This document shows positions 1 through 55,113 of a stretch of 64,000 nt of DNA, piece by piece. The notes beneath the pieces are model-generated. The model was not told the origin of the DNA. It did no database searches and saw nothing but the letters and a program-made list of their open reading frames with translations. The DNA is from Chaetoderma sp. LZ-2023a. Its lineage: Eukaryota; Mollusca; Caudofoveata; Chaetodermatida; Chaetodermatidae. How positions within the stretch are numbered: the stretch's first letter is position 1; the number at the start of each line of letters is the position of its first letter. A program made the position numbers and the translations under genes. Location: the NCBI GenBank assembly GCA_034401795.1, contig CM067369.1:85073129-85137128 (forward strand), given 5' to 3'.

Positions 1-1438
1 CAGACATACCTGGGAGTCACCTATGACAGAAGATTAACATGGAAGGAGCACATCCAGACCACAGAGGCAAAGGCCAGAAACTAAAGCTAAACATCATGAG
101 GAAGCTGGCAGGAACAAAGTGGGGTGCCAATGAAAGGATCCTCAAGACCATCTACCTAGGTGCCGTATGACCACACCTTGAGTATGGATCCAGCTCATGG
201 ATGACAGCAGCTAAATCTCATCAACAGAACCTCGACAGAGTACAAAACCAGGCACTGCGCATCATCACTGGTGGAATGAGATCAACACCAATAGAAAAGA
301 TGGAGCAGACAGCAGGCATCCCCCCACTTGGTAAAGGAAGGGAATGCAAAGCACTGATCCAAGCTGCAAAGTTCAAATCATTCAACAACCACCCGATGAA
401 GATCAGGCAAGCACAGCTGTCATCAGGAAGACTTAAAAGATCAAGTTTTGTGAAAGAGACAAAAGCACTTCAAAGGAAACACCAAGAAATGTTGCCAGCA
501 CAAATAGAAGACCCAAACCACACCCTTGATCCTCCACCCTGGGAAAACAAACTAGAGAACATAGCTATTCGCACCACAGTACCTCATCTCACAACCAAAG
601 ATGAACACAGTGATGTGAGCAAGAAGGCCCTGACCCTAGTCATGCTGGAAGAAATGTACCCTCAGGAGACATGGATAAGGATCTACACAGATGGATCAGC
701 CGAAGATGCAATTAGGAGCGGAGGTGCCGGACTGCACATACAGTATCCAAACGGACAACATGAGTCAGCTGCAATACCGACAGGCAAACACTGCACAAAC
801 TACAGAGCTGAAGTCGAAGCACTGGTCCATGCAGCTAATACCATCAGCAGAACAGCAGAACAACAGACCCTATTGCACAGATTGTCTTTTTATCTGATGC
901 CCGCTCCGTCCTTGAGGCTATCACCAAAGGTAAGCTGCCACAACTTGAAGAAGCATTACAAACCATCAAATGCTTTCGGATGGCATTGCAGTGGATCCCC
1001 TCACACTGTGGAGTCCAAGGAAATGAGGAAGCAGACAAGATGGCAAAGGTGGGTGCAGAAGAGAATCAGACAGAAAACATGGTTACACATACAGAGATGA
1101 AGACTATCATCAAGTCACTTTATAGAACACCTCAATCAGAAGATGCCTACCATCATCTCTCGAGGCCAGAGCAAGTGACCATTTTTCGTCTCAGAACTGG
1201 ACATAACAGAATAAACCAACACATGTACAGGCGGTTCTACCTTACGACATCGCCCGCTTGTCCTTGTGGAGAAGCAGAACAGACCACAGAGCACATACTT
1301 CAATGTTGCAGTACCTATCAGCTGCTGAGAGAAGAGATCTGGCCTTTGTCAACCTCTTTTCTTGAAAAGCTGTATGGGCCTGTGGAAGAACTGCAGAAAA
1401 CCACAGATTTCATCTTGAGAATGGCTCTCCAAGTGTGA
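1..1438 (+). pseudogene. LINE A RT end, RNase H and zinc motif (frameshifted)
   Basis: The reading frame runs through the RT connection (MTAAKSHQQNLDRVQNQ at 201) into RNase H. The RNase H residues visible are Asp in IYTDGSA (about 690), Glu in YRAEVEAL (about 805) and, in another frame, Asp in NEEADKMAK (about 1030). The C-terminal motif CPCGEAEQTTEHILQC (about 1255) is a Cys/His zinc-binding type. A duplication of about 8 bases near 855, compared with LINE C, shifts the frame. An early stop (tga, about 167) replaces an Arg codon of LINE C. The copy is therefore dead, although it keeps Trp at 541-543 where LINE C has a stop. Confidence 0.85.
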
Positions 1439-1478
1439 TACCAGCGATTGAAAAGAAGAAGAAGAGAAAAAGGAAGAA
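1..1478 (+). mobile_element. LINE A, 3' part of an I-superfamily-like non-LTR retrotransposon
   Basis: From its first base this segment matches LINE C from 28733 almost base for base (sparse substitutions, small indels). It carries the end of the reverse transcriptase, the RNase H domain and a C-terminal Cys/His motif, then a GAA-rich tail (1453-1478). The 5' part lies outside the window. LINE B begins directly after the tail. Near-identity to LINE C implies recent activity of this family. Confidence 0.9.
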
Positions 1479-1514
1479 GGTTGTCCAACCTAAAGTACAA
1501 GTAAGCAAACCGCT

Positions 1515-2288
1515 GACTATCATGCAATGGAATGCTGAAGGAGTTTCTAACAAGAATATGGAGCTTAGCCATACATTAGCGTATCAAAGAAACTCATCTA
1601 CATGCAAACAGAAGATTCTGTATAAGAGGATTTCTGACAGGGATGACAGACATAAAGGAGGAGTCAAAACCCTGGTCCGGAATAACCTAAATGCCATTGA
1701 ATTTCAGAGAGACATGAACGGACCTGAAGTTCTCACAATCAAGATAATTCCAGAGAAACATCCTATCACTGTTGTCAACCATTACTGCCATAATAATCAA
1801 CCATTGAATCTCAGAAAAATCCCAGTTCACCCAGATTCAACTATCGTTGCTGGTGACCTCAACAGTCATTCTCAGTTATGGGGCTATCATTCTACTGATA
1901 GGAGGGGTGAGAACATTGAAAATTGGATGGATGAGCAGAAGCTGATTCTCTTGAATAAGGCAGATGACACCCACCCACCCCCCCACACCACCTCATCTTT
2001 TATGACAGTTATTATTATGAATATCCGTCATGGTGCTCGCCATGTGAGTTCCCGCCAGGGATGTTGAGATTCTACTCAAGACGATGGCATACCTCAAGTT
2101 CTCCTGATCTAGCATTTTTGACAGAAAATCTACATCAAGAATCTTTGCGTATTGTTGGGGAACAGCTTGGAGGCAGTGATCACCGCCCTGTTTTCATTAC
2201 CATTAACATGGATGTTGAGATTGACCGGAATCACACTCCTCGATGGAACTATAAGAAAGCAGACTGGGACAGATATCAGAAAGAGTGA
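1515..2288 (+). pseudogene. LINE B endonuclease domain (broken)
   Basis: Endonuclease motifs are visible: TIMQWNAEGVSNK at the N-terminus (Asn of the active site), VNHYCHN, the catalytic AGDLNSHSQLWG (about 1850) and, in another frame, SPDLAFLTENL and GGSDHRPV (about 2175), the last holding the Asp-His pair. Sequence between about 1965 and 2070 is degenerate (CCCACCC tract) and shifts the frame. The endonuclease would nick the target DNA to prime reverse transcription. This copy cannot encode it intact. Confidence 0.82.
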
Positions 2289-2289
2289 T

Positions 2290-3815
2290 AGATTGGTAAA
2301 AGACATTGATGTCAAAAAACTAAATATCAATAAAATTGTTAAAGAGCTTAACTCTGCTTTACTCTCTGCTGCTGGCAAATGCATTCTTAGGGGATCCAGG
2401 AAAAATTACAGACCTTACTGGAGTATGTCTCTGCAAAAGTTACACGAAGAAATGTCCAACTCAAGGGAAATTGCAGAGAATGTTCCAACAGAAGCCAACC
2501 ATGTGAGACTCCAACAACCCAAGGCAAAATATCTGAAAGCCAAAATCAGAGCCACCAGAGAATCGTGGAGAGAAAAAACGTCACGCTTAAATCTTGAAAA
2601 AGATACGAACAAACTATGGAGGCTTGTGAAGCAGCTTAATGATGAAAACACCAGAGTAACGAACAAAATTCTTGAAGAGGATTGTGAAATTAAAACAGGA
2701 GAGGTTGCTGCTGAACACTTTGCTTGTATGTTTCAGAAAGTAAGCAAACTAGATGTTCCAGTAAGTTGTAAAAAAGCTGCAATGAAGTCTGCAAAGTGGA
2801 ATGGAGACACACAAATACATGCCGCAGGAATGGATGAGCTTCTGACTATCAGCGAGTTGCAGAAAAGCTTGAAAGTTCTGAAACACAGGAAGTCTCCTGG
2901 ACCAGATGGAATAACCAATGAGATGTTGAGGAATCTGGCTACTATTGGAAAGCACAAGCTTTTGGAGATTTTCAACCACAGTTGGTACACAGGAGAAGTT
3001 CCCCAGCCTTGGAGAGAGGCCAACATGATCCCTGTACTGAAAAAAGACAAGAATAAATCCAAAGCGACAAGTTATCGACCTATCAGTCTGACTAGTTGCA
3101 CGGTCAAAGCCATGGAAAGAATCCTCAACCAGAGACTTCTTCGACATCTTGAAAGCAACAATCTCTTGGCGGATGAACAAAATGGCTTCAGAAAGTGTAG
3201 ATCTACTGAGGATCAAACAACAGATCTGACACAGTCTATTGAGGAGGCGTTCCAACAGCAAAAGCATTTGATAAAGTATGGACGCATGGACTCCTCCAAA
3301 AGCTCAGGACCAGTGATATTTCTGGAAAAATGTACAGCGGGATATGCCAGTATCTCCACAGCCGAAAGGCATCAGTACAGCTGAATGGGATGAGCAGTAA
3401 GAAAGTCCTGCTACGACATGGTGTACCTCAGGGAGGTGTAGTCTCTCCCACCCTCTTCACAATATTCATCAATGACCTGGTGAAGAACCTTCTAATGGGA
3501 GTCAGAGCTGCATTGTATGCTGACAATCTTGTGATGTGGAGCAGCGAGACGTATGTGTCAACAGCCAATTATCGCATGCAACTCGCAATTGATCATCTCA
3601 ATTCTTGGGTTACAAGATGGTTTGTCCAGATCAACAAAGAGAAGACAGTTGCAACTCTATTCACACCATCCACTAAAAAGGAACACACAACAAGTCAGAA
3701 ATTTGGTGACTCAGTTCTGCACTTTGAGGATGAAGTAACTTATCTTGGTCTGATATTTGACAAAAGACTAACTTGGAAGGTGCAAATCAGAAAAGCTGAA
3801 GGTATAGTCAAGTGA
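2290..3815 (+). pseudogene. LINE B reverse transcriptase (inactivated)
   Basis: Motifs seen: KSPGPDGITNEML (about 2890), SYRPISLTSC (about 3070), EQNGFRKCRSTEDQ (about 3175), GVPQGGVVSPTLF (about 3420) and, at the active site, LYADNLVMW (about 3515). The YADD box reads YADN, losing a catalytic Asp. A deletion around 3260 removes the catalytic FxD part of motif A, leaving only KAFDKVW in another frame. A stop at 3813-3815 replaces the Arg seen in LINE C. Confidence 0.88.
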
Positions 3816-3932
3816 AGACTGGCAGTTATGCGGAAGCTTTCTGGAACAAAATGGGGAGCTAACATGAAAATTCTGAAACAGGTTTACTCTGGATCAGTTA
3901 GGCCAAGCATCGAATACGGCTCATGATCATGG

Positions 3933-5179
3933 ATGACAGCTGCTACAAGCACCCTTCAGACATTGGATAATGTACAAAATCAGGCTCGTTGTATCATAAC
4001 AGGGTCTATGAAGACCACTCCAATAGCAGCGATGGAAGAACTTAGCAATATCCGGCCACTCCAGCAGAGACGAGAAATCAAGGCCGAGATTCAATACGAG
4101 AAATTCAAATTGATGCCTCACCATCCCATGCATATGCTGACTCACCAAATGTCTAGAGGAAGGCTCAAAAGGAATAATTTCTTATTAACTTCAAAGAAAA
4201 TTGAAAGAAACAGAGAGTCGGACATCTTCCCCAGATGTAGAAACATAACTGCTATTTCTGAGAGGGAACCGTGGAAAGCTTCTGAAATAGAAAACACAAT
4301 TTCAATCTGGCCCTCGATTCCAGGAATTGAAAGCAAGGGAGATCAAGCAGAAGTGACAAACAAAGTTCTTGCATTGAGTCATATTGCAGAAAATTACCCT
4401 GAGGAAGAGTGGATACATGTTTATACAGATGGATCAGCTATCCAGGCTGTCAAGAATGGAGGGACACGTGCTCACATTCGGTTTCCATGTGGAGATATAA
4501 CAGACTCATGCTTGCCAACAGGGAAGCACTGTAGCAATTACACTGCAGAAATCCAGGCACAGGTCTTAGCTAGCCAAATGCTGATACCACGAAAAAACAG
4601 AAATGAAAATATTGTCTCCCTGACAGACTCCCTCTCAGCGCTCCAGGCACTGGAGAGTGGAAAGGAAAGTACAGATTTAATTCATGAAAATCTTACACAA
4701 CTGGCTAAGGAGAACAATGTCAACTTACAGTGGATCCCCTCGCATTGTGGCATATTAGGAAATGACAAAGCTGATCAACTGGCTAAGGAAGGGTCAAATA
4801 AAGAACAATTCAACCATGAGATTGACTTTGAAAAACTGAAGCATATCAATAAAGCCACAAGAACCACCAGCAGGCAGCATAATGATGCAATACACAGCCT
4901 CAGTAGGGAGGATCAGACATGTATCTTCAGATTGAGAACTGGTCACAATCATCTCAATGCACATCTTCACCGTCTCAAGATTACAGATTCTGCACACTTT
5001 GTGAGTGTCAGCGGGCAGACGAAACAGCAGAACATCTCTTGCAGCACTGTCAGCGATATGAACAGGCTAGGAGAAGCTTCAGGTTTATTGAAGTATCTTT
5101 TGAAGAGAAGATCAGAGGAGACAAAGACAGTTTTATGACCACTTCAGCTTTCATGCACCAAATAAGGAAAACAGTCTAA
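3933..5179 (+). pseudogene. LINE B RNase H and Cys/His motif
   Basis: RNase H shows all four acidic positions: VYTDGSA (about 4420), YTAEIQAQ (about 4545), SLTDSLSAL (about 4620) and GNDKADQLAK (about 4760). The SHCGI motif is also present (about 4745). The C-terminal FCTLCECQRADETAEHLLQH lies in a different frame because of an indel near 4930. RNase H would remove RNA from the RNA:cDNA hybrid. It occurs in I-superfamily LINEs and is absent from RTE/CR1/L2 types. Confidence 0.84.
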
Positions 5180-10164: not shown

Positions 10165-11821
10165 CACCTGTGCAAAAGTTAAGCACCACCCTATTTTTAC
10201 GCACATGCGAGGGTATATTCATGTGCTATGAAGAAAGCAATAGCATAAACATTTATGTACCCATCCATCTTAGTGCAAGAGGTAATAATGCAACTAGAGG
10301 AATGCTGATTATGATGGTGGGGAAACACTGTATGTTTTTGTTTGAACTTGAAAACGAGGCCTGAATATGGTTACGTTGACACAACTGACAACTATTGCCC
10401 TACAGTTGACACACGTGGCTAGATTGTCATTAATGGTGTCTGAAAACGAAGTTTAACATCTGTGCACGAGTTTGAGACTGTCATTATTAATACCGGGTAT
10501 ATCCACCTTGTGCCTGGATGACGGCCTGGACACGACATCTCATGCTGGTCACCAACCGACTGATACGCCATTGTGGTATTCGTTGCCATTCAAGATGGAG
10601 TGCGTCTGTTAATTCCTGTAGGTTCTGCACAGGAGGATCCCTCCTTCTCACCATGTTTCCCAGAATGTCCCAGATATGCTCAATAGGGTTCATGTCAGGG
10701 CTCCTTGCTGGCCATGGTAGGGTTTCGATGGCATTCTGGCGGAGGTATTCATGCACAGCTCTAGCACGATGTGGTCGGGCGTTGTCATCCATGAATATAG
10801 GGTGGGTTCCAGGTGCATGATTTACAAAATGAGGGACCACAACTCTATCCAGTATGGAATCTTGATATCTTTGTCCATTTAGTGTTCCAGGTACAGTCAA
10901 CAGATCCAGCTTACAATCAAATGAGATGCACCCCCATATCATAACGGAACCTCCACCAAATGGAACTTCTTCCATGATGTTACGTTGGTCGTACGTCGTG
11001 CGTCTGGACCTCCATACACGAGTTCGACCATCTGTGGCATGAAGCAGGAACCGACTTTCATCGGACCAGTGTACCCGTCTCCAGGATCTCATGTTCCAGT
11101 GTCTTCTTTCGTTGCACCACCTCAGACGCTCCTCTTTGTGGAGTGCAGTGAGGAGAGGACGTCTGACAGGTCTCCTAGCTTTCATGCCAGCAGCATACAG
11201 TCTCCTTTTGACGGTAGACATTGACACTCTATTGCGCGTTTCCCATTGCTGGCTGAGCACTCTGCTGTTGGTGAATGGAGATCTCCTAACAAGGCATACT
11301 AGGGCTCGATCATCACGGGCAGTAGTCTTCTTCGGTCTTCCAGATCTAGGCCTGTCCTTCACCTCGTTAGTTTGCCCATGTTTTGCAATCAAACGACTGA
11401 TTACAGTATGGTTAATGTTCAGCTGGCTGCCAATCTCTCTGCATGACATACCAGTGGTATGCATGCCTATGATTTGCCATTTCACACGATCACTTAACCT
11501 TTGTCTTGCCATAGCGGTTCACAATCAAGAGCTAATTCTCTCTGTACAAATAAACCACGGTCATGAACACAAAATTCCTAATCTTGTCGCCTAAATCTGT
11601 ATGTAATGTTCTACACCTCAAACTGGACTTTTACATAACTGAACACGTGTGCTGTTTCCCGCCACGCACGGACATCAAGCGGCGTGAAGTCATTCATCCA
11701 TGTGCATTTCGTACTTGGAATTATGTCAGCTAATGCGGGGACAAAAAGTATGGCAGCCTAGTTGTACCATCATGTTTCTACGTTCTATTGTTTTTGCTGG
11801 TGCTTAACTTTTGCACAGGTG
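10165..11821 (-). mobile_element. Complete Tc1-type DNA transposon
   Basis: Bounded by a 24-bp perfect inverted repeat starting CACCTGTGCAAAAGTTAAGC (10165-10188 and 11798-11821) and flanked by TA on each side (10163-10164, 11822-11823), the expected Tc1/mariner target duplication. A single uninterrupted transposase gene lies inside. Total about 1.66 kb, a usual size for Tc1 elements. It sits in the intron between exons 14 and 13. Confidence 0.93.
10487..11512 (-). CDS. Tc1-like DD34E transposase, 341 aa, intact
   Basis: Cut-and-paste transposase. The N-terminus (MARQRLSDRVKWQIIGMHTT) begins a paired-type helix-turn-helix DNA-binding region (residues about 5-60), followed by a GRPKKT basic patch and a second HTH (about 70-115). 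The catalytic triad is visible: Asp in HWSDESRF (about 150), Asp in FMDDNARPH (about 242) and Glu in MNPIEHIWD, with 34 residues between the second Asp and Glu. The GGGSVMIWG glycine-rich box is present. Length and order match Tc1 transposases, with no stop or frameshift. The start is the first Met after the upstream inverted repeat. The protein could be functional, which also suggests recent insertion. Confidence 0.94.
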   Translation of the reverse strand: MARQRLSDRVKWQIIGMHTTGMSCREIGSQLNINHTVISRLIAKHGQTNEVKDRPRSGRPKKTTARDDRALVCLVRRSPFTNSRVLSQQWETRNRVSMSTVKRRLYAAGMKARRPVRRPLLTALHKEERLRWCNERRHWNMRSWRRVHWSDESRFLLHATDGRTRVWRSRRTTYDQRNIMEEVPFGGGSVMIWGCISFDCKLDLLTVPGTLNGQRYQDSILDRVVVPHFVNHAPGTHPIFMDDNARPHRARAVHEYLRQNAIETLPWPARSPDMNPIEHIWDILGNMVRRRDPPVQNLQELTDALHLEWQRIPQWRISRLVTSMRCRVQAVIQAQGGYTRY

Positions 11822-12035
11822 TATATGATGAATAGCTAACAGAGAAATAGTCCCTCTTAATTCATCTCAAAATTCAAAATGGATGCATAGAAAATGAGTA
11901 CAAGAATTTGCTGACATAAACTGCATAGATGCTGCTATTAGTACAGTAGAAATCGACATGGACCCGGACATTTTGTCTAACAGACAAATTTTTGTTTTAA
12001 TCACTTCGGTATGGCCAAAAATACATCCCAGAATT
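11822..12035. other. Spacer between the Tc1 element and the CXC/nuclease element
   Basis: AT-rich sequence with a small palindrome (TTGTCTAACAGACAA, about 11972-11986). No coding signal or recognised repeat. Confidence 0.5.
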
Positions 12036-12263
12036 AAATTCACACATGGGGAAATATGTTTTTTAGAGGAAATTCAAAATGGCCGCCAAGGCGATGCCCA
12101 ATAACCAGGTAATAAGTATTTTGACTCTAAAAACCCGTGTTTTGGTAAGTGTTGTACAGTTTAAAGTATGTCATCATCAAAATCACTTGATAAACTATAA
12201 ATTTAATGCAAACTTAGCGACTGTTGTGAAACACAGCGAACAGGCAGAATGGCTGAAATTTGT

Positions 12264-14625
12264 CTATGCATTTTCACTTTCAAATTTCGAGCTGTTAAGG
12301 CAGTGACCTTCACATTTACAATGTATGCTACAGGGAATGCCTTTCTTGGAGCAACTACACGAGGAACACAGATGTGTGCTGCTTTTACACTGACACCTTA
12401 TATTTAGAAGTAGCTCCGGAGGCGCTGCTGACTTGTCCATAATGATCGCCGTCACTGATCCTTGTTCTACTGCATAACCATACTCTTCTTTCTTTAACAC
12501 AGTTTATAGGTGAAGCCATGTGCTTGCTTGGAGATGAACCAGAAGGCTATGGAAGTATGATGCCCTACGTGTGGGTGGCATCCTTTCAACTGGTGCATGC
12601 TTAGGAGAGATGGCAGTCATGTATCTGAGATTGTCTAAGCCAGGACTTCTTGATCCAGCACCATACAAAGACTTAATGTACTTTTCACCAATAACCATTA
12701 TATCCGCCTTTGATCTGGAGATGTCACCAAATGCAAGTACATCTTGTCTGAGGGTTGGTGAAGATTGGATCATTTTCATATGCTTTACTTTGCCCATGCC
12801 ATATAAAGCTGATGTCGTGTCACATCCAAACATACTATGGACGAATGGCAGGCACATACACAATTCCTTGCCTAAGATCTCTGTGGCCACTTTGATGCAT
12901 AGCTTATGTTGCTTTGTTTGTAGGAAAATATTTGCAGAGGTGCTTGCATGATAGAGGAGTAAGATCAATATGTCTGTATCGTCAGCAACAACTATCGTTG
13001 TTCTTTCAGTTCCTGCCAATTCTAATGCTCTCCTTACAATCACCACATCAGCATCGGCTTCATCTACTGCATGTACCACCTCAACACCTGCATCTGATAA
13101 ATGTTTTGCAAACAGATTTATGGTATTCTGCTTGTTGCGTTTGTTTGATAGAAATCCAGTTTTGTTTCCTGGAACAGGTGTGTTGTCTTGGACAGCTACA
13201 TCAGGAGCACCAACTTGATTAAGCCGTCGTCGTTTCTGTTCTTCATCTTTTGTGGTCTCAGTTTGAGTTATCAAATATAACGCATACAGGCACTTCAAGC
13301 CTCTGATAATGTACTACTGATGCTACGAATGAGCTACAAACGGTCTCCATTGTTCCAACCTTAGGCCCTGGTATCCGATGCAAAAGTGCGCAGCCATCAA
13401 ATACTCTTGCAGCTGGCTCTGTTGTCTCTTGCTGTAGCATTGATGTGTTCATTTCAATTATATACTTCGCCAGTTGTGACTTTTGCGATTTCCTCATAGT
13501 TCCGTCATCGTGGAAGAGGGTGGGAAATACTGTTGCAAGCTCGTATTCAAAGATCGCTTTGTCTGGAGGTCCATAAACAGATGCAGTTGACATTAAGCGA
13601 TGGTACAGCTCCTGGGAAGACATATGGACATCTTCATTTCCTACTTTAACTACCTTTCGCATGATAGCAAATGTTACAGCTTGATCTGCTTTCTTTAGCG
13701 TAATGTCGCCAAACCTTTTCTCATTTAACTTCTCATGAATTCTTCGATCAATATCAATGGCATCATCGTCAGTAACACGATGGTCTGCAATCAAACCAGT
13801 TGCGATATTTCTCAGTTGGTCGTCTTCAACTGCAAATAGATTGTGTTCTCTGAGAAACAGAGTGAATTTCTTCATGTCATCTACATCTCGTCTCATATTT
13901 GCAGGGTGAACATCTCTGTGAACATCTCCGGTGAACGTGTCAGTCAATGACCGCGGAGCGTGTGTGTACTGTGCTATGATGTGTGCAGTGAGAAGCCATT
14001 TTGTTCTAGCGGATTCCTTGTGCGTTATATTGATCAATCCACCCTGTGTCTTCCCAGCTCTCATTAGACTCTGTTCAATTGTCATATCAGACCAGGTACC
14101 ACTCCAATACAGTTTAGCATTCCTGCATACAGCAAAGTGCCCTTCGTGCATGGGACCATCCAGACAAGTACATAGATCATCAGAATCTTGGAGGTAAAGG
14201 CGACAACACTTTATGTAATTGTTGTGCCCTGCAGCAGCAAAGAATGGCACCATTAGTTGTGTCGCCTTTAAATGAAGGAGCCAATTACCAGTATGCTCAG
14301 CCCTGATGAACAATCGTACAATGGCGACAAATTCCATGAACAACGACCACAATTTACCAGTTCTTGATTTCTCTACGTTTTCCTTCAAATTAGAAACTTG
14401 CTTACATAGGTCTTGCAAATGATCATTGTCACAAACATCGTCTGCTGAAATATCATGTGACATAATAGCATCGTATAAATTGTGCAGCTCTGACCACATA
14501 TCATCCGTTGACATATGTGTTTGACTTTCACAGCATGTTTCTGTTTCGGTTGTTTGCTCATCCGAAGCGTCATCGCTATCAGGATCAACATCACTTTCTT
14601 CATCTTCACCATATGTACTGTAATT
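12264..14625 (-). pseudogene. Broken XPG/PIN-like nuclease and CXC-domain protein
   Basis: Three pieces join in order. Piece 1 (to about 13258) has an acidic start and family motifs such as LFIRAEHTGNWLLHLKA, MVPFFAAAGHNNY and IEQSLMRAGKTQGG. Piece 2 (13298-12504) has paired acidic motifs AVDEADADVV and VVADDTDILILLL, the pattern of XPG/PIN-like nucleases, plus a FGCDTTSALYGMGK motif. Piece 3 (12500-12264) ends in nine cysteines spaced CxC-x6-CxxCxC-x6-C-x3-CxC-x3-C, a CXC (tesmin/TSO1-type) DNA-binding domain. One frameshift near 13265 and one in-frame TAA (12504-12506) break it. An acceptor-like ttacag lies just upstream (about 14626). Function unknown. A transposase role is inference. Confidence 0.72.
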
Positions 14626-14654
14626 TTAATTTACATTAGTATGTCTTACAGGTA

Positions 14655-14740
14655 ATTTGACTGGGATCTGTTGTCATATACACAATTGACAATAGCAATT
14701 GTCAGTAGGTCTAATTTTATAAAATTCTCAACAGATTACC
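14655..14740. repeat. Decayed H hairpin core
   Basis: Reads AATTTGACTGGGATCTGTTG, CAATTGACAATAGCAATTG, then AAATTCTCAACAGATTACC, the order of the H core. It lies inside the putative nuclease element, upstream of its gene. Confidence 0.5.
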
Positions 14741-14987
14741 TATTTATGCTAAATATTTTCCACATTTCGTTCCCTAACTTCAAAGGGTTAAAAATCAGGT
14801 TTCCCCAAGTGTGAATTTGTGAGAATTTCTTGTGTGCACTCTGGACAGTCATAAAAAGTGTTTGGAACACAAAATCGTCTGTTATACAAAATGTCTGGGT
14901 TATCCTATATTTCTGTTGATTTCTACTGGACTATATCACATGAATCACTGGATGGATCAAATCGATTTTAACTTCTATATCAAGCCG

Positions 14988-15228
14988 TTTAATGCTTTAC
15001 CAACCATATCAGCCAAAAACGGATTCTGCAGTGGTTTTGAGTAAAGTCCATTTGTAGACCAAAATAAGACTATTTTTGAAAATTTACCACTGGAATGACT
15101 GGCTCGATAACCGAGCCAGTGATTACAGTGGTAAATTTTCAAAAGTAGTCTTCTCTTGGTCTGCAAATGGGCATTCCCATGAGAAAATAGAAATTTTCTT
15201 GGAGAAATTTGAGGGGTAAAGGGTTAAG
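14988..15228. mobile_element. TTAA-family 1 hairpin element
   Basis: Left TTTAATGCTTTACCAACC, palindrome GACTGGCTCGATAACCGAGC and right GGGGTAAAGGGTTAA. The GCAGTGGT and TCTTGGTCTGCAAATGG segments are well kept. Confidence 0.78.
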
Positions 15229-23430: not shown

Positions 23431-24650
23431 TCATTTTCTTGGATTGATAGCATATGCTAGAGGGTTGGTTAAATCTGATATGTAACGCAAATAATAATCC
23501 GTAAAGGATGATTCACAATGCCAATGGGCTACCGACATAACATCCTCCAATGAAACACCATTATACAGTGCAGTTGAGGCCACTAAGCCCCTGACATTAT
23601 GTGCCCTAGCCCTCTCTACCTGTACATTAGAAGAGATCTTATGAATGGCTTTATTTGTTTCCACAATCCATCTTGATATGGTGTCCTTTGAAGCTCTACC
23701 ATGTGGGGCTAAGTAACATAGCCATAATGATGTTGGATCTGTTCTCCAAGCCATGGTGTGCTTCTTATATACTTTCAAAACCCTAACTGGACACCATTCA
23801 CTAGCTGACAGATCATGTCTAACCAAACTTGGCAAACAGATAGGTTGATCACGATATTTTAATGATTGATTTTTTAACATAAACTCTATCCTAGGTAAAA
23901 GACGCAGACCGTCTCCCATTACTACAAAGCGGTCATCTTCTGCTGATAATGCGTGAATTTCACTACTTTTTCTTCTACTAGCTGAAGCAGCAGCAACCAA
24001 AAGCACTGCCTTCCATCTCAACAGTTTCATATCTATTGTTCTAATAGGTTCAAAAGAATGTTTAGACAATACTTATAATACTACGGATAAACTCCATGCT
24101 GGATGTGCTAATGCCTGTCTTGGTCTTTCATTACCCATTCCCCTTATCATATCATTCAACATGTTCATACATTCACCCCTCTCAGCCAGGTAAGGAATTA
24201 CAGCAGCAAGAGCTGATTTGTATGATGCTAATGTTGATGGAGCTAGTTTTCGTTCATTAAAGCGCTCACAGAGAAAGTCTGCTACCTGTTGCATAGTTGC
24301 AAGAAAGGGATTAATATTTCTTTTCTTACACCACATTGCAAATTGGTTGATTCTAAAATTATATGTTTTATAGGTAGATCCTTTTCTGGCACAAGCAATG
24401 ACTTTTGATGCTTCATCAGAAAAGCCTCCCTCAATTGAGCGTTGAGTGATAACATCCAGGCAGTCAATTGAAACATCTCCAGGGCCTCGTGGTAATGCTT
24501 GGCCCTGTTCTGGGAGATCAAATCTGGTGACTGTGGCAGAGGCACAGGTCTGTAAACCAGAAGGTCCACCATGTCCATGATAAGGATCGGCCTGGCCAAT
24601 TTGGGGCGATCAAAAGCACTTGGCACTTCTCCGCATACATCCCCCTCCAA
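23431..24650 (-). pseudogene. DIRS-1 tyrosine recombinase (broken)
   Basis: The catalytic part (24069-23431) keeps SSEIHALSAEDDR (Arg), ARAHNVRGLVAS (His-x-x-Arg), AHWHCESSFTDYYL (His/Trp and the Tyr nucleophile) and GRASKDTISRWI. The N-terminal SAM-like part (24336-24073: VADFLCERFNERKLAPSTLA) lies upstream, separated by a stop at 24073. Further upstream pieces (to about 24650) are frameshifted. The YR would splice circular cDNA into the genome. Confidence 0.87.
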
Positions 24651-27150: not shown

Positions 27151-27798
27151 AACATCATGCACTGGAACGCAGAAGGGGTTACCAACAAGAAATCAGAGCC
27201 AGAACAGTTCCTGTACGAAAACAACATTGATATCTGTTGCATCCAAGAGACACACCTACAAGAAGGAAAACCGTTTAAGATCAGAGGTTACCAGAATTTC
27301 CGGTGTGATCGAAGAGGAAGAAAGAAAGGCGGGGTGATCACCTTGGTCCGATACAGCGTGAACGCCAGCCAGATCAAAACCTTTATGGAAGAGGCAGAAT
27401 ATATCAAGATCAAGGTAACAACCAGCACCCCTGTGATTGACATTGTCAATTATTACTGCCCTAATGACAAGAATCTCTCACTTGACACAATCCAGGTCCC
27501 GGACTGCCACTTCCTCATTGCGGGAGACTTTAATAGCCAGTCTCAGAACTGGGGATACAGAACACTTGATAAACGAGGAGAAGACATTGAAGCATGGCAA
27601 GATGAAAAGCACCTTTTACTTGTCAACGATCCCACAGATCTTGAAGAAGATGGACAAACACTGTCAGGAAAGATGGCTGCAGATGCCTTTGCGAAGGCAT
27701 ATGCAAAAGAAAGCACATTTCTATACCACGAATGCGTCAAAAAGAGGTTAGAAAAGAGCAAAAGGAAAGAACAGACACCAAAACTCACGATGCAATGA
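27151..27798 (+). pseudogene. LINE C endonuclease, C-terminal part deleted
   Basis: Reads MHWNAEGVTNKKSEPEQF, then DICCIQETHLQEGK (catalytic Glu), DRRGRKKGGVITLVR, IDIVNYYCPNDKN, LIAGDFNSQSQNWGYRTLD (catalytic Asp/Asn). After LLLVNDPTDLEEDGQ it jumps to sequence lying just before the RT domain. Compared with LINE B, roughly 0.7 kb is missing, including the SPDLAF and SDHRPV motifs. The endonuclease is therefore non-functional although the frame stays open. Confidence 0.87.
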
Positions 27799-29084
27799 AA
27801 GTTGACAGTAGTTTAGCAGAACTGAAGAAGTCAATCCGCCAATTGAAGAAGAAGAAATCTCCCAGGCCAGATGGCATTACGAATGAAATGATCCAATACC
27901 TTGGTAATACATCTCTTCGCAAGTTGCTAGATATCTTTAATCTCAGTTGGACAAATGGAGAGGTTCCTCAGTGCTGGAAGGAAGCCAGAATGACTCCTAT
28001 TCTGAAAAAAGGGAAGAACAAGACGAAAGTGCTGAGCTACCGTCCTATCAGTCTTACAAGCTGCATATGCAAGACCATGGAGCGCATCGTCAACCAGCGG
28101 TTGCAGTGGTACCTGGAGTCTGAGAACACTATAGTTTCAGAGCAGGCTGGCTTCAGAAGATACAGGAGCACAGAAGATCAAACAACACATCTTGCACAGG
28201 CCATAGAGGACACTTTTCAAGCCAAGAAGGTGATGCTAGCTGCCTTTATTGATATGCAGAAGGCATTTCACAAGGTGTGGAAGGATGGCCTCCTCGTGAA
28301 GATCCGGCGCACAGGCATCGGTGGCAACATGTTCCGATGGACCAAGTCATACCTACACAATCGCAGAGCTAGGGTGCTGGTGGATGGACAATCTGGACAG
28401 AATGTATTGCTGAGACAAGGGGTACCACAAGGAGGAGTATTATCACCAACTCTGTTCATACTCTTCATTAATGATATTCTAGCAGAGCTGCCCAATGGGA
28501 TCCAAGCATCCCTCTATGCAGATGACCGTGTACTCTGGTGCACCGAGGAGTACACAATGACTGCCACGTACAGAATGCAGCTTGCCTTGGACAGAATTAC
28601 AGCTTGGGCCAATCGCTGGTGTATTACCATAAACAAAGAAAAATCATCAGCCATGCTATTCTCACTGTCCACCAAAACCAAGGTTGGCAACCTGACACTG
28701 GGCGGTACTCCACTCGAGTACGGGGACCAGCAGACATACCTGGGAGTCACCTATGACAGAAGATTAACATGGAAGGAGCACATCCAGAATGCAGAGGCAA
28801 AGGCCAGAAGAAAGCTAAACATCATGAGGAAGCTGGCAGGAACAAAGTGGGGTGCCAATAAAAGGATCCTCAAGACCATCTACCTAGGTGCCGTACGACC
28901 ACACCTTGAGTATGGATCCAGCTCATGGATGACAGCAGCTAAATCTCATCAACAGAACCTCGACAGAGTACAAAACCAGACACTGCGCATCATCACTGGT
29001 GGAATGAGATCAACACCAATAGAAAAAATGGAGCAGACAGCAGGCATCCCCCACTTACTAAAGGAAGGGAATGCAAAGCACTGA
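27732..29084 (+). CDS. LINE C reverse transcriptase, uninterrupted 450-codon frame
   Basis: Open frame with KKKSPRPDGITNEMIQ, SYRPISLTSCICKTMERI, EQAGFRRYRSTEDQTTH, AAFIDMQKAFHKVW (motif A; catalytic Asp kept, KAFD altered to KAFH), GVPQGGVLSPTLFILF (motif B), SLYADDRVLW (motif C, intact YADD), TYLGVTYDRRLTWKEHI and the thumb. It ends 29082-29084 because one C is missing from a C-run near 29049 compared with LINE A. The RT core itself looks complete, but the protein lacks a whole endonuclease and is cut off from RNase H. Confidence 0.88.
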   Translation: MRQKEVRKEQKERTDTKTHDAMKVDSSLAELKKSIRQLKKKKSPRPDGITNEMIQYLGNTSLRKLLDIFNLSWTNGEVPQCWKEARMTPILKKGKNKTKVLSYRPISLTSCICKTMERIVNQRLQWYLESENTIVSEQAGFRRYRSTEDQTTHLAQAIEDTFQAKKVMLAAFIDMQKAFHKVWKDGLLVKIRRTGIGGNMFRWTKSYLHNRRARVLVDGQSGQNVLLRQGVPQGGVLSPTLFILFINDILAELPNGIQASLYADDRVLWCTEEYTMTATYRMQLALDRITAWANRWCITINKEKSSAMLFSLSTKTKVGNLTLGGTPLEYGDQQTYLGVTYDRRLTWKEHIQNAEAKARRKLNIMRKLAGTKWGANKRILKTIYLGAVRPHLEYGSSSWMTAAKSHQQNLDRVQNQTLRIITGGMRSTPIEKMEQTAGIPHLLKEGNAKH

Positions 29085-30156
29085 TCCAAGCTGCAAAGTT
29101 CAAATCGTTCAACAACCACCCGATGAAGATCAAGCAAGCACAGCTGTCATCAGGAAGACTTAAAAGATCAAGTTTTGTGAAAGAGACAAAAGCACTTCAA
29201 AGGAAACACCAAGAAATGTTGCCAGCACAAATAGAAGACCCAAACCACACCCTTGATCCTCCACCCTGAGAAAACAAACTAGAGAGCATAGCTATTCACA
29301 CCACAGTACCTCATCTCACAACCAAAGATGAACACAGTGATGTGAGCAAGAAGGCCCTGACCCTAACCATGCTGGAAGAAATGTACCCTCAGGAGACATG
29401 GATAAGGATCTACACAGATGGATCAGCCAAAGATGCAATTAGGAGCGGAGGTGCCGGACTGCACATACAGTATCCAAACGCACAACATGAGTCAGCTGCA
29501 ATACCGACAGGCAAACACTGCACAAACCACAGAGCTGAAGTCGAAGCACTGGTCCATGCAGCTAATACCATCAGCAGAACAGCAGACCCTATTGCACAGA
29601 TTGTCTTTTTATCTGATGCCCGCTCCGTCCTTGAGGCTATCACCAAAGGTAAGCTGCCACAACTTGAAGAAGCACTACAAACAATCAAATGCTTTCGGAT
29701 AGCATTGCAGTGGATCCCCTCACACTGTGGAGTCCAAGGAAATGAGGAAGCAGACAAGATGGCAAAGGTGGGTGCAGAAGAGAATCAGACGGAAAACATG
29801 GTTATGCGTACAGAGATGAAGACTATCATTAAGTCACTCTATAGAACACCTCAATCAGAAGATGCCTACCATTATCTCTCGAGGCCAGAGCAAGTGACCA
29901 TTTTTCGTCTCAGAACTGGACACAACAGACAAACCAACACATGTACAGGCGGTTCCACCTTACGACATCACCCGCTTGTCCTTGTGGAGAAGCAGAACAG
30001 ACCACAGAGCACATACTTCAATGTTGCAGTACGTATCAGCTGCTGAGAGAAGAGATCTGGCCTTTGTCAACCTCCTTTCTTGAAAAGCTGTATGGGCCTG
30101 TGGAAGAACTGCAGAAAACCACAGATTTCATCTTGAGAACGGCTCTCCAAGTGTGA
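29085..30156 (+). pseudogene. LINE C RNase H and Cys/His motif
   Basis: Continues the polyprotein in a shifted frame, with a TGA at 29268-29270 where LINE A has TGG. RNase H catalytic residues are present: YTDGSA, HRAEVEAL, FLSDARSV, NEEADKMAK, plus IPSHCGVQ. An indel near 29930 shifts the frame again before CPCGEAEQTTEHILQC. The stop at 30154-30156 is shared with LINE A. Confidence 0.86.
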
Positions 30157-39358: not shown

Positions 39359-40400
39359 TTATTTTTTCAAAATCGACAAGGCGAGAGGATTAGAGGTGTC
39401 ACGGAGATAATGGTCTGTAAAACTTGACTCACAGTGCCACTGAGCCACCGACATAATATCATCCACAGGGACCCCATTAAATAGGGCCGTGGATGTCACT
39501 ACGCCGCGGACACTGTGAGCCTTGGCCACGTCAACCTGCTTCCCGGTGGCGGATTTATGGCAAAACTGAATGCATTCCACAATCCACCTGGAAATGGTGT
39601 CCTTAGAAGCCCTGCCATGGGGTTCAATGTATGACAACCATAACGCTGACTGATCGGTGCGCCACTCCGCCGTACGTTGCTTGTACCGGCAAAGCGCCCG
39701 GACAGGACACCATGCTTTAGAATTAGGATCATATCTAGTTAAAGCAGGCAAAATAATAGGTTGACCTGGATATTTCAACGACTGATTTTTAGCCAAGAAA
39801 TTAATCCTAGGTAGCAGCTTAAGGCCTTCCCCTGAAACCACAAAACGGTCATCCTCGGCTGATAAGGCATGAATTTCACTCCTACGCCTAGCCGAGGCCG
39901 CAGCAATTAAAAACACAGTCTTCAGTGTTAATAGTTTCATAGAAATGGAACTAAGTGGTTCAAAAGGCTTATCACCTAGTACTTGAAGCACTAGTGATAA
40001 ACTCCAAGACGGAATCACAGGTGGATTCCTTGGTCTCAGATTGCCCATGCCTTTAATTAATACATTTAATGTATTTACTTCATCACTTCCCCTCTTAGCC
40101 AAGCAAGGAATAACAGACATTAATGCTGACTTATAACCAGCAATAGAGTTAGGCTTGAGGCTATAGGCATCATAGAGGTGACAGAGGAAATCAGCTACTA
40201 CTTGAATAGATGAATCCATTGGATCAATACATCTTTTTGAGCACCATTCTGCAAATCTGTTGATTTTATAATTATATGCTCTGGAGGTTGACCCCCTCCT
40301 GGCTTTGGCCATAAACATGGCTGCTTGCTCAGAAAAGCCCTCCTTAATTCTAGATTCCTTGACAACATCCACGCAGTCAATCTGAACATTGACGGATTGT
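39359..40400 (-). CDS. DIRS-2 tyrosine recombinase
   Basis: About 346 residues of YR, continuing an open frame that extends upstream to 41401 in the shadow of the RT gene. The SAM-like N-terminal part has SRAYNYKINRFAEWCSKRC and VVADFLCHLYDAYSLKP. The catalytic part has ARRRSEIHALSAEDDRFVV (Arg), GRASKDTISRWIVE, AKAHSVRGVVTS (His-x-x-Arg), AQWHCESSFTDHYLRD (His/Trp and the Tyr nucleophile). No stop or shift. The start codon is uncertain, since DIRS YR genes often begin inside the upstream gene. It would integrate circular cDNA by strand exchange. Confidence 0.9.
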
Positions 40401-42654
40401 TGTGAAGGGCCTTGCCCTGGAAGATAATATCGTCCATCAGAGGCAGAGGAACCGGATTGCAGACCAGAAGGTCCAGCAGATCCGTATACCATGATCGGCT
40501 TGGCCAATCCGGGGCGATCAGAAGCACTTGGCATTCCTCTTGTCTGATTTTCTGAAGAATTTTTGGAATCAGGATTGCTGGAGGGAATGCGTATGCATAC
40601 ATTCTCCCCCAGCTGATAGCTAACGCATCTGTTGCGAAAGCACTTGGATCCGGAATCGGAGAGACGTACGTCGTCATCTTCGCATTCTTCTTCGTTGCGA
40701 ACAAATCGATGTTGGGTTTCCCCCAATGGTCGAACAGACGATCCGCCACACATTGATTTAGTTGCCATTCCGTGGGTAAAACACTCATCCTTCGGCTCAA
40801 TGAGTCTGCTAGCAGATTTAACCTTCCCGGAATATGAACTGCTTTCAAGGTAATCTGGTGATCCAGACACCAACAAAGCAGTCTCCATGTCATCATACAG
40901 AGACTGGGCGACTTCGTTCCGCCCTGGCGGTTTATGTAAGTCACAACTGTTGAGTTGTCTGAACGAATAAGAACAATCTTGCCCTGAACTTTCTGTAAGA
41001 AATGTTCCAGGCCCAGGACTACTGCTCTTAGCTCCAGTAGATTTATATGTTCCTTTGACTGTTCCAGATTCCAAAGCCCTGATATCGTGGACTCTTCCAG
41101 GCAAGCTCCCCAGCCCTCCATCGATGCATCTGTATACACAGTCACCTGAGGGTGGGGAGGGGTTAGCATAACCCCCACCAAGAGATTCTCTGTGTCCAAC
41201 CACCATTGCAGGTGATGAATCAGAGGCGCCAACACTGACACATTTGAGTCCAGCGAACCTGTACTCTGGGTCCATTGTGTCATGAGAAATAACTGGATCG
41301 GCCGCCTGCGTAAGGCGGCCTGAGGAATGACTGGTTCCAATGAAACCATCAACCCCAGCATTCTCAAGTAAACCCGTGCCAGGACATGACGACTGTCGCA
41401 CACTGACTGAATTAATGAGATGAGTTTCTGAACTCTCTCCTGAGTAGGATAAACATATCCTGTCTCTAGATCGAAGAACATCCCCAGGTAAACAAACTTC
41501 TGGGATGGAATCAGCTCTGATTTTGGGAAATTGATCATCCAGCCTAAGTCTGTGAGAGTTTTCAAATCAATCTCCAGACTGGCCGATAAACTTTCCCGGG
41601 TGTGTGCTTTCAACAGCCAGTCGTCTATGTACGTGTGGACTGCTATGCTTCTCCTGCGGAGGTATGCGGTGATCGCAAGAACCACACGGGTGAAAACCCG
41701 AGGAGCCGTGGAAATTCCGAAGGGTAGCACCCTGAATTCCCACTGTCTGCCCTGGAATGCAAATCTCAGGAAGCGACGGAAACTCCTGTGTATGGGGATG
41801 TGGAAATAAGCGTCCTTCAAATCTATCAACGCTGTCCACATTCCCCTCTCTAACCCCGCCAACACCGAGCGCACAGTCTCCATCTTGAAACTGGGCGTCT
41901 CTATGAACTTGTTCAATGGCTTGAGGTTGAGAATTGGTCTCCACCCTCCGGTGTTCTTTGTTACTAAGAACAGGGTTGAATAGAAGCCCGGACACCTCTG
42001 TGCCGGCTGAATAGCTCCTTTTTGTATGAGGGAATTTATTTCCTCCTCGATACACAACCTTTGATCTGGATCTCTTGGATTTGGAGTCCAGATCGGCACT
42101 AGAGACAGTCGCGATGGCGGGCCTGTCATCCAATCGGGATGATACCCGACTGAAAGCCATCGCAAGACTAAACGGTCCTGAGTTAACCGTTCCCACTCTT
42201 GCATGTGGTCGGCTAGCCGGCCTCCCACCGGTCCACCTAGGGATAGAGGTGGACATAAGGAGTGCAAGAGCGGCACTGTCTCCTCTGCCCGAAACACCGG
42301 CGCGGTTCTCACCGCGGTAACCGTCCCATCAGGAACGATTACCCCGCCCAGATCCTCGCGCGCCACGACCAGCACCGCGCGCACCTCGGTGCGCGGGCGG
42401 CTGCCTGGCTGACTGCGCCTGAGGAGCCCGCGCCCCCCTCGCTGCTGGCCGAATCGCACGCGGCCGAGGCCGGCGCTGCGATGGTGGTTGGCCTCTGACC
42501 TGGCCACTACCACCTCGAGCCTGCAGGGGACGATACGCAGGCGGTGCGGCGCGAACGTTGGCACGATGAACCACCTCAAACTGCTCGCGCAGCGCCCTCT
42601 GGTTATTGACCAGAGTAACCGTCTCCTGGAGGTGCCTACACCCCTCACCTCCAA
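40198..42654 (-). CDS. DIRS-2 reverse transcriptase and RNase H
   Basis: Open throughout. The first ~130 codons overlap gag in another frame and are probably not pol, so the real protein likely starts near 42255. RT: LVTKNTGGWRPILNLKPLNK, ALIDLKDAYFHIPIH (motif A), LPFGISTAPRVFT (B), AVHTYIDDWLLKAH (catalytic YIDD). RNase H: VYTDASMEGWGACLE, INLLELRAVVLGLEHF, LIRSDNSTVVTYIN, RLNLLADSLSRR, giving the D-E-D-D set. The C-terminal region has GKPNIDLFATKKNAK and CQVLLIAPDWPSRSWY. I saw no DPPY-like methyltransferase motif, unlike classical DIRS1. All catalytic residues are present. Confidence 0.92.
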   Translation of the reverse strand: MEVRGVGTSRRRLLWSITRGRCASSLRWFIVPTFAPHRLRIVPCRLEVVVARSEANHHRSAGLGRVRFGQQRGGRGLLRRSQPGSRPRTEVRAVLVVAREDLGGVIVPDGTVTAVRTAPVFRAEETVPLLHSLCPPLSLGGPVGGRLADHMQEWERLTQDRLVLRWLSVGYHPDWMTGPPSRLSLVPIWTPNPRDPDQRLCIEEEINSLIQKGAIQPAQRCPGFYSTLFLVTKNTGGWRPILNLKPLNKFIETPSFKMETVRSVLAGLERGMWTALIDLKDAYFHIPIHRSFRRFLRFAFQGRQWEFRVLPFGISTAPRVFTRVVLAITAYLRRRSIAVHTYIDDWLLKAHTRESLSASLEIDLKTLTDLGWMINFPKSELIPSQKFVYLGMFFDLETGYVYPTQERVQKLISLIQSVCDSRHVLARVYLRMLGLMVSLEPVIPQAALRRRPIQLFLMTQWTQSTGSLDSNVSVLAPLIHHLQWWLDTENLLVGVMLTPPHPQVTVYTDASMEGWGACLEESTISGLWNLEQSKEHINLLELRAVVLGLEHFLQKVQGKIVLIRSDNSTVVTYINRQGGTKSPSLCMMTWRLLCWCLDHQITLKAVHIPGRLNLLADSLSRRMSVLPTEWQLNQCVADRLFDHWGKPNIDLFATKKNAKMTTYVSPIPDPSAFATDALAISWGRMYAYAFPPAILIPKILQKIRQEECQVLLIAPDWPSRSWYTDLLDLLVCNPVPLPLMDDIIFQGKALHNNPSMFRLTAWMLSRNLELRRAFLSKQPCLWPKPGGGQPPEHIIIKSTDLQNGAQKDVLIQWIHLFK

Positions 42655-45950: not shown

Positions 45951-47390
45951 GTAACAAGAGACCCAAAGGCCTTAATGCTCAGCTGGCCCATTAGCATCTA
46001 GACCATTAGCATTTGAACAGACATAATACTTTAAATTCATCAGTAACAAGAGATAAAAGACAAAATTGGGAATTCAGTACAATCGATATTTAGTGGGAAA
46101 TTCATGATGAACACTGATCACACAATCAGTTTGAACCTTAGGTTCCATCCAACCAATAAAAAAATCCAATATGGGCATCAAACCCAAAACTTTGATAGGT
46201 CCATGACAACCAATTTTTATCAAGGATCACGTTCTCTTGAACAAACTTTAATCACCCTTAGTTATAGATGAAATTAAATCTAATAAGTTTCGGCCTTTGT
46301 ACAGCAGTTGCTGAGATGCCATTTTGTAGAAACAAGATGGCCACTGGAACAAGCGGTTAATGAAGAGTAGCGTTTTAAATGATTTCCAGCCATTTTTCGG
46401 AAAAATCAAGATGGCCACCGAACAAATTAACCATTCAAAATTCTGTACACAAGCTCTGAAGCACACCACCATTGGATCATTTCAACAGAGTTTGCTTGAA
46501 ATCAGTTACAGAAGAGTAGGTTTTTAACTGATTTCAAGAATTTTCAGAAAATCCAAGACGGCTGACTAAAAAAAATGACCAATCAAAATTCTGTATACAA
46601 GTTCTGAAACCTACCAGCCTAGTACCCTTCAAGCCAAGTCTGGTTGAAATTGTCCAAGCAGTTAATGAGTAGCATTTTAAACAATTTCCTAACTCTTTTG
46701 GAAAATTCATGAGGGCCACTGAAAAAAATCGACTAATAACAAATTATATATACAACGTCTGAAGCATACCACTCTAAGGTCCTCCCAACACAGTTTGCTT
46801 AAAATCGTTCAAGGAGTAGAATTTTTATTGATTTCCGGAATGTTCAGAAAATCCAAGATGGCCGCCGGAAAAATTGACCAGTTAAAATTCTGTATATATA
46901 TGTTCTGAATCCTACCAGCCTAGTATCCTTCCAGCAGTCTGGTTGAAATTCCCCAAGCAGTTAATGAGGAGTAGCATTTTAAACGTTTTTCCGCTATTTT
47001 TCGGAAAATTCAAGATGGTCGGCAAAATAAATTGACCAATCAAAATTCTGTAAATCATGCTGAAGCGTACAACTCTAGGGTCCCTCCAACCAAGTTTGCT
47101 TGAAATCGGCCAAGTGGTTAATGAGGGGTAGGGTTTTAACTGATTTCCAGGAAATGCTCAGAAAATCCAAGATGGCCACCATAAAAATTGACCAATCAAA
47201 ATTCTCTATACATGTTCTGAAACTTACCAGCCTAATATCCTTCCAGGCAATTCTGGTTGAAATTTCCCAAGCTGATAAGAAGAGTAGCATATTAAAGGGT
47301 TTCCTGCCATTTTTCAAAAAATTTAAGACGGCCACCGAAAAAATACATGGCCACCAGAAATATTGACCAATCAGAATTCTCGTTAGACAT
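45951..47390. repeat. ~150-bp tandem array (AAGATGGCC type)
   Basis: Opens AACAAGAGACCCAAAGGCCT. Units then carry TTTCGGAAAAATCAAGATGG, AAATTGACCAATCAAAATTC, TCTGAAGCCTACCA, TTCCAACCAAGTTTGCTTGA and TTAATGAGGAGTAGCATTTT. Occurrences of the AAGATGG word near 46407, 46553, 46852, 47011, 47167 and 47328 give a period of about 150-160 bp. Strongly diverged, non-coding. Confidence 0.85.
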
Positions 47391-54240: not shown

Positions 54241-55113
54241 TGTACATTAAGTGAAAGCTTCTGGAATTTCTTTTTGAAAATCCAAGATGGCCATCGGAAA
54301 AATTAACCAATTAAAATCCTTTATTCAACTTCGGAAGCATATGGTCATAGGATGCTTCCAGCCAGGTTTCATTGATATCTGGCCATTGGTTAAGGAGTAG
54401 CGTTTTAAAGAATTTCTGGAAATCTTTTGGAAAATCCAAGATGGCTCTTGAAAAATTGACCAATCAAAATTCTCATTAGAACTCTTGAAGCTTATCACCA
54501 TAGGATCATTCCAACCAAATTTTGTTGAAATCGGGAAATTGATTAAGGGTAGTATTTTTAAAGATTTCTGGAAAATACAAGATTTACACAATTTTCCGAA
54601 AATCCAAGATGGCCACTGGAAAAATTGAAACAATCAAAATTCTGTAGAGATTTTTTAAGTCTACCGCACTAGAGTCTTTCCAGCCAAGTCTGGTTCAAAT
54701 CGCACAAGAAGTTAATTAGCAGTAGTGTCTTAAATGATTTCCTGCCATTTTTCGGAAAATTCAAGATGGCCACCAAACAAACTGACCAATCAAAATTCTT
54801 TATAAAGTTATGAAGCCTATCCCCATAAGGTCATTCCAGCCACATTAGGTAGAAATCTGCCCAGCAGTTAATGAAGAGTAGCATTTTGACAATTTCTGGT
54901 AGATTTTTCATAAAATTGAATATTTTCGCCCAAAAAATTGAGCAATCAAAATTCTGTGTACATGTTCTGAAGCCTACCCCAAATTGGATCCTTCCAGCCA
55001 CATTAGGTTGAAATCCGTCAAACAGTTAATGAGTAGTGTTTTTAAGTTAAAAGATGTCAGCCAGATGGACAGCTGAACGGACGGACGGTGGACGGTCGGC
55101 ATGGCATAAGCTC
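53808..55113. repeat. AAGATGG-type repeat element with internal array and large trinucleotide tract
   Basis: Starts AAGAGGCTCACCTGGACCAT and ends ACGGACGGTGGACGG, GGCATGGCATAAGCTCAATT. Units carrying TCCAAGATGG recur near 53876, 54281, 54435, 54605 and 54760. It interrupts a TTAA-family 1 copy, so both its borders are defined. Confidence 0.82.
53989..54241. repeat. (GTA)n/(GTG GTA)n microsatellite, ~250 bp
   Basis: About 84 trinucleotide units (GTA with GTGGTA interruptions in three clusters). It sits inside a unit of the AAGATGG array, near the word GATTAAGTAGTAG. The poly-Val and poly-Tyr frames across it are artefacts. Confidence 0.97.

Follow-up and report, generated by a model that had tools for sequence, protein, structure and literature searches.

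A minus-strand gene that combines XPG/FEN-like nuclease motifs with a CXC cysteine cluster, and that is enclosed by a pair of 19-bp inverted repeats, raises the question whether it belongs to the host or to a mobile element, and in the latter case to what kind of element and in what state. The gene lies in a stretch of 64,000 nucleotides from the mollusc Chaetoderma sp. LZ-2023a, which will be called the window and to which all positions below refer. The original prediction had proposed it, provided that the ends recur around other copies, as the protein of a mobile element, perhaps one with an unusual excision mechanism, and had pointed to the Academ transposons as carriers of a comparable nuclease.

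The 19-bp pair (12036..12054 on the plus strand and 14800..14818 on the minus strand) is real: the pattern has two matches in the window and no other at up to three mismatches, and shuffled sequence yielded on average 0.13 matches, with two or more in 1 of 100 shuffles. The two 19-mers are, nevertheless, not the ends of the element, as they lie about 100 bp too far in. Both sit inside a longer, imperfect inverted repeat as one of its inner blocks; the arms of this repeat pair at 12036-12065/14789-14818, 11962-12006/14856-14900 and 11939-11958/14914-14933; a local alignment joins all of these and extends outward to 11906/14962, i.e. past the element ends. The left arm (11939..12065, plus strand) begins with TAGTACAGTAG and the right arm (14789..14933, minus strand) ends with CTACTGGACTA, and judging from the flanks of the copies that were fetched from the genome (see below) these are the points where the similarity between copies stops. 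Copy comparison identified the trinucleotide TAT as the target duplication, on the left at 11936..11938, where empty sites carry a single TAT, and on the right at 14934..14936. Because TAT is found on both flanks, the element was set at 11939..14933 (2,995 bp, coding strand minus), on the basis of the comparison with 20 fetched copies and with empty sites.

The remainder of the window contains several other repeat-like features. Just outside the element, at 10487-11512 (minus strand), a frame of 341 aa resembles a Tc1/mariner transposase when judged by eye from familiar motifs, and at 15043-15175 two arms of 64 nt, 88% complementary and separated by 5 nt, form a near-perfect palindrome that may be a small palindromic element. 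Overlapping frames of 680 and 818 aa at 39359-42654 (minus strand) resemble by eye the reverse transcriptase/RNase H and tyrosine recombinase of a DIRS-like element, and a similar recombinase-like end is present at 23431-24069. Frames of the LINE type (endonuclease, reverse transcriptase and RNase H, by eye) occupy 201-5138 and 27157-30046 on the plus strand, and tandem arrays with units of about 153-157 bp, the consensus sequences of which look related, are found at 46350-47344 and 54259-55032.

The host assembly (2.44 Gb, 2,753 contigs) was searched at the DNA level with 12036-14818 as query. Among the 1,088 first-look candidates 40 were scored, the window included, which yielded at least 39 further places at 94-98% identity to the window copy; the gene is therefore multicopy rather than single-copy. 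The match ends at query position 2570-2572 in 29 of these 39 places and earlier in the other ten, no place spans 2571-2581, and the final 200 bases of the query are found as separate pieces farther on. We fetched 20 copies with their flanks, and since 19 were chosen from the top of the list (the remaining one came from just below), the sample leans to long copies. In 14 of the 20 a script found both ends, flanked by a 3-bp duplication without mismatch, and the window copy with its TAT comes in addition; the duplications of the 14 are AAT, CTA, CTA, CTA, TGT, ACG, AAT, ATG, ATA, TGG, ATA, TAA, AAT and CCA. They count as 13 independent cases because L011 and L012 differ neither in the element nor in the flank; a 3-bp match would be expected by chance about once in 64. 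The right end is truncated, and a duplication lacking, in L014 and L019, which have common flanks, and the right end was not found in L018, L020, L021 and L022. Between the ends, nine of the 20 copies measure 5,492-5,546 bp, L027 measures 6,346 bp, and L011, L012, L013 and L016 measure 3.7-3.9 kb. Ends, gene and target duplication thus co-occur in other copies, as anticipated for a mobile element. A separate search with the terminal inverted repeat, aimed at short elements made of the repeats alone, gave 651 candidates, 40 of which (the window among them) were scored and three partly fetched; beyond the repeat, L035 and L036 match the element over some 1.4 kb more, up to where the fetched piece stops, and L037 over about 416 bp only.

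Alignment to L009 identifies the break at query position 2571 as a deletion in the window copy. At the junction (14606..14616) about 2,538 bp (~2.54 kb) of L009 are absent, with 9 other bases in between, and the loss takes residues 1 to ~729 of the N-terminal frame of L009, including a candidate DDE region; for this reason only the nuclease and the CXC cluster are visible in the window. What remains there is itself broken, all on the minus strand. An upstream frame (13258..14514, 418 aa) holds part of a linker and, from the nuclease, the motif VIFDN; a frame shift follows near 13266, the XPG/FEN-like nuclease continues for the most part in a second frame (12504..13298, 264 aa) with the motifs DEADAD, ADDTD and GCDTT, and an in-frame stop at 12504..12506, where L009 reads through, separates it from a third frame (12264-12500, 78 aa) that contains the CXC (TCR-like) cysteine cluster at 12291..12398. 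The nuclease-CXC protein is, to judge from this alignment, the C-terminal part of a longer protein, left by the deletion; it is transposon-encoded, as the original prediction supposed, and is a remnant rather than the element's protein in full. The window copy could presumably have moved only with protein supplied by other copies.

The longer protein can be read from the longer copies of this family (family A), for which the frames of L009, L023 and L025 were used. The minus-strand frames of L009 comprise 959 and 509 residues and those of L025 comprise 416 and 1,149 aa, the latter jointly covering the whole protein. From N- to C-terminus there is a Cys/His-rich part, the candidate DDE motifs ADN.D, TFD and EGSGI, a linker, the nuclease and the CXC cluster. 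The nuclease motifs of the longer copies are VIFDN, DEGDAD, ADDTD and GCDTT (GSDTT in L025). None of the 20 fetched copies has the complete protein in a single open frame, the longest stop-to-stop frame being 1,159 codons; the relatives of about 5.5 kb appear, from their conceptual translations, to encode transposase, XPG/FEN-like nuclease and Cys-rich tail as one protein. In viral_contigs no relative of the N-terminal frame of L009 was found and no confirmed relative of its nuclease-CXC frame (there was one pattern match, unconfirmed).

The assignment of the nuclease comes from profile comparison. A five-row profile that includes both families described here was searched against PDB with E up to 10, and all five matches were to Exonuclease 1 (E 0.0072, 0.008, 0.017, 0.12 and 0.15). 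In the alignment the motifs (E)AD, D.D and GCD fall opposite those of Exonuclease 1, and VIFDN is paired with VFDG only in a separate piece of 1 bit. A relation to FEN/XPG is likely. In single-sequence searches of PDB neither the window frame (E up to 1) nor the L009 frame (E up to 10) had a match. No Pfam XPG or DDE model was matched at E up to 10 (two frames) or 1 (other frames), the sole Pfam match of the nuclease part being a weak one to NYN_YacP (E 0.046); the window frames 13258-14514 and 12504-13298 had no Pfam match at E up to 1, and three window frames had none in NCBIfam. An AlphaFold prediction of frame 12504-13298 made without alignment had a mean pLDDT of 37.4 and is unusable as a fold. 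The CXC cluster matches Pfam TCR, in the window with an E of 0.0089 and 16.7 bits against a cut-off of 23.5, and across all scans the TCR matches stay below cut-off.

A second family came to light through Pfam DUF6589, to which family A is weakly similar (E 0.016 and below cut-off for L009; L023 was not listed). This model has at least 102 places in the host genome (102 scored of 1,025 candidates) and no match in 14 control genomes. Six loci were fetched (L029-L034) and form one family, family B, the pieces of which are mostly 92-98% alike. DUF6589, a family of unknown function, is its best curated match (E 6.4e-13 for L031 and 7e-11 for L033). The frames of family B have the candidate DDE followed by the nuclease motifs, in the order seen in family A; the CXC cluster was seen in a single open frame, that of L033, where it was judged by alignment and by eye because Pfam TCR was not listed for that locus. 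Families A and B are 21-27% alike and keep the same domain order and acidic motifs: BLASTP aligned L025 and L033 with an E of 3e-20 at 21% identity, and hhalign aligned the two family profiles with a probability of 98.6% at 25% identity over a stretch that begins with the TFD motif. The candidate TFD and EGSGI are kept in both families, and the first candidate D was matched by eye only, as MAFFT left it unaligned between the families and the hhalign match begins after it. Family B has terminal inverted repeats, with ends TAGTCTGTC about 6.3-7.3 kb apart, and three of the four loci that are readable at both ends are flanked by a duplication (TAC in L030, TGG in L033 and CACT in L032); the fourth, L029, has none. 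At the left end of family B there are repeats of about 193 bp, the number of which varies between copies (e.g. L032 reversed, 228-1049).

To which group of transposons do these families belong? The Academ superfamily reportedly includes a lineage AcademX (Kojima 2020); another lineage, AcademH, combines the DDE transposase with an accessory enzyme. According to the available text of PMC10045372, AcademX has a nuclease and duplications of 3 or 4 bp and AcademH a helicase and duplications of 9 or 10 bp, and the author relates the duplication lengths to the nuclease and the helicase. The families described here share with AcademX, so described, the short duplication (3-4 bp) and have, by profile match, a likely nuclease of the XPG/FEN kind, and they carry a CXC tail; the length of the element is near the mean of 5,565 bp that the available text of PMC10294476 gives for bivalve Academ elements. 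They differ from AcademH as described there, which is also the subject of PMC10799480 (in fungi), in their duplications of 3-4 bp against 9-10 bp and in that no helicase model was matched in the scanned frames of families A and B. We therefore consider it likely that 11939..14933 holds a cut-and-paste DNA transposon of the Academ (AcademX-like) type, in the form of a dead copy with an internal deletion; the assignment is based on the length of the duplication, the type of nuclease and the size of the element, with AcademX taken from its printed description. The guess of an Academ relationship thus agrees with the printed features of AcademX, and to speak of an under-described system was too strong, because nuclease-bearing Academ elements have been published before, as the available text of PMC10045372 attests. 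In the literature searched, from which Kojima 2020 was absent, no title or abstract dealt with a CXC domain in Academ, and DUF6589 was not mentioned.

The element might instead belong to Harbinger, CMC/EnSpm, Zator or a superfamily without a name, and have gained an XPG/FEN-like nuclease independently. Duplications of 3 bp are made by other superfamilies as well, the best curated match of family B is a family of unknown function, and nucleases have been gained in other superfamilies, for instance by Kolobok lineages (PMC9587614). Kolobok, likewise a DDD/E group with an extra nuclease, inserts into TTAA, whereas the 3-bp duplications found here vary in sequence; PIF/Harbinger targets TWA, and the duplications go beyond that (AAT, CTA, TGT, ACG, ATG, ATA, TGG, TAA, CCA, TAT); and CMC/EnSpm elements end in CACT(A/G), whereas both families end in TAGT (TAGTACAG and TAGTCTGTC). 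The accessory nucleases of the Kolobok lineages are moreover of other types, as far as described in the available text of PMC9587614, and the pairing of a nuclease with duplications of 3 or 4 bp is what the available text of PMC10045372 gives for AcademX. An origin in another superfamily is accordingly rather unlikely.

Within the AcademX-like reading a role can be proposed for each part of the protein. The N-terminal half, with its candidate DDE transposase, would cut and join at the inverted repeats with a stagger of 3 bp. In the C-terminal half, the nuclease of XPG/FEN type would remove a flap or cut a branched intermediate during excision or integration, and the CXC tail would assist DNA binding. 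Among the FEN1/EXO1/XPG nucleases it is Exonuclease 1 with which (E)AD, D.D and GCD can be aligned; the similarity is modest (E 0.0072), and the setting differs, the nuclease being fused here into a transposon protein. It is conceivable, and offered only tentatively, that transposase, FEN/XPG-type structure-specific nuclease and CXC act as one fused protein in which the duplication of 3-4 bp is set by a second, obligatory cut that the nuclease places in a flap, hairpin or branched intermediate, with the CXC tail as a constant and so far unremarked part. The unusual excision mechanism of the original prediction was not borne out. The nuclease-CXC half could also be a passenger without a part in transposition, and the window copy moved or arose without revealing which half matters; two families that are 21-27% alike nevertheless keep the order and the acidic motifs, which makes a mere passenger improbable. 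The conserved order transposase-nuclease-CXC in two distant families suggests that transposition makes use of the nuclease.

The history of the window copy can be read from its unoccupied target. The window flanks were joined with one TAT and used as query, and of 1,748 candidates 40 were scored. Two of these are the window's own halves and the other 38 are other genomic places at 79-83% identity, all of which cross the flank junction at position 100; the four that were fetched are gapless at that point and show a 4-base difference some 20 bases to the left of it. For L025, 46 of 95 listed places match the joined flanks from position 1 or 2 to 200 at 87-94% identity, as judged by the span of the alignments. 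The window copy and L025 were inserted into older repeats, the unoccupied versions of which survive. The listed copies of the repeat that hosts L025 are often about 255 bp apart, like a tandem array. Among 19 copies (18 fetched ones and the window, with the duplicates L012 and L019 excluded) the K2P distances of the 171 pairs average 0.0246 and lie between 0.0178 and 0.0341, and in a partial core the changes seen in a single copy number 140/156/130 at the three codon positions and the shared ones 19/14/17, an even spread that would fit one burst from a coding source followed by neutral decay. That a nuclease-CXC gene of the host, or a transposon gene that has been domesticated, lies here between chance inverted repeats is, despite the resemblance of the nuclease to host repair enzymes (Exo1), hardly credible in view of the many near-identical copies, the 3-bp duplications, the broken frame and the even distribution of changes over codon positions, and is refuted for the window copy by the empty sites.

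The puzzling nuclease-CXC gene is thereby explained as what a deletion left of a transposon, one that has precisely placed ends, a target duplication and empty sites. The most interesting part of the result is the fused domain order found in two distant families. Annotations of invertebrate genomes may well list remnants of this kind as repair-like genes of the host.
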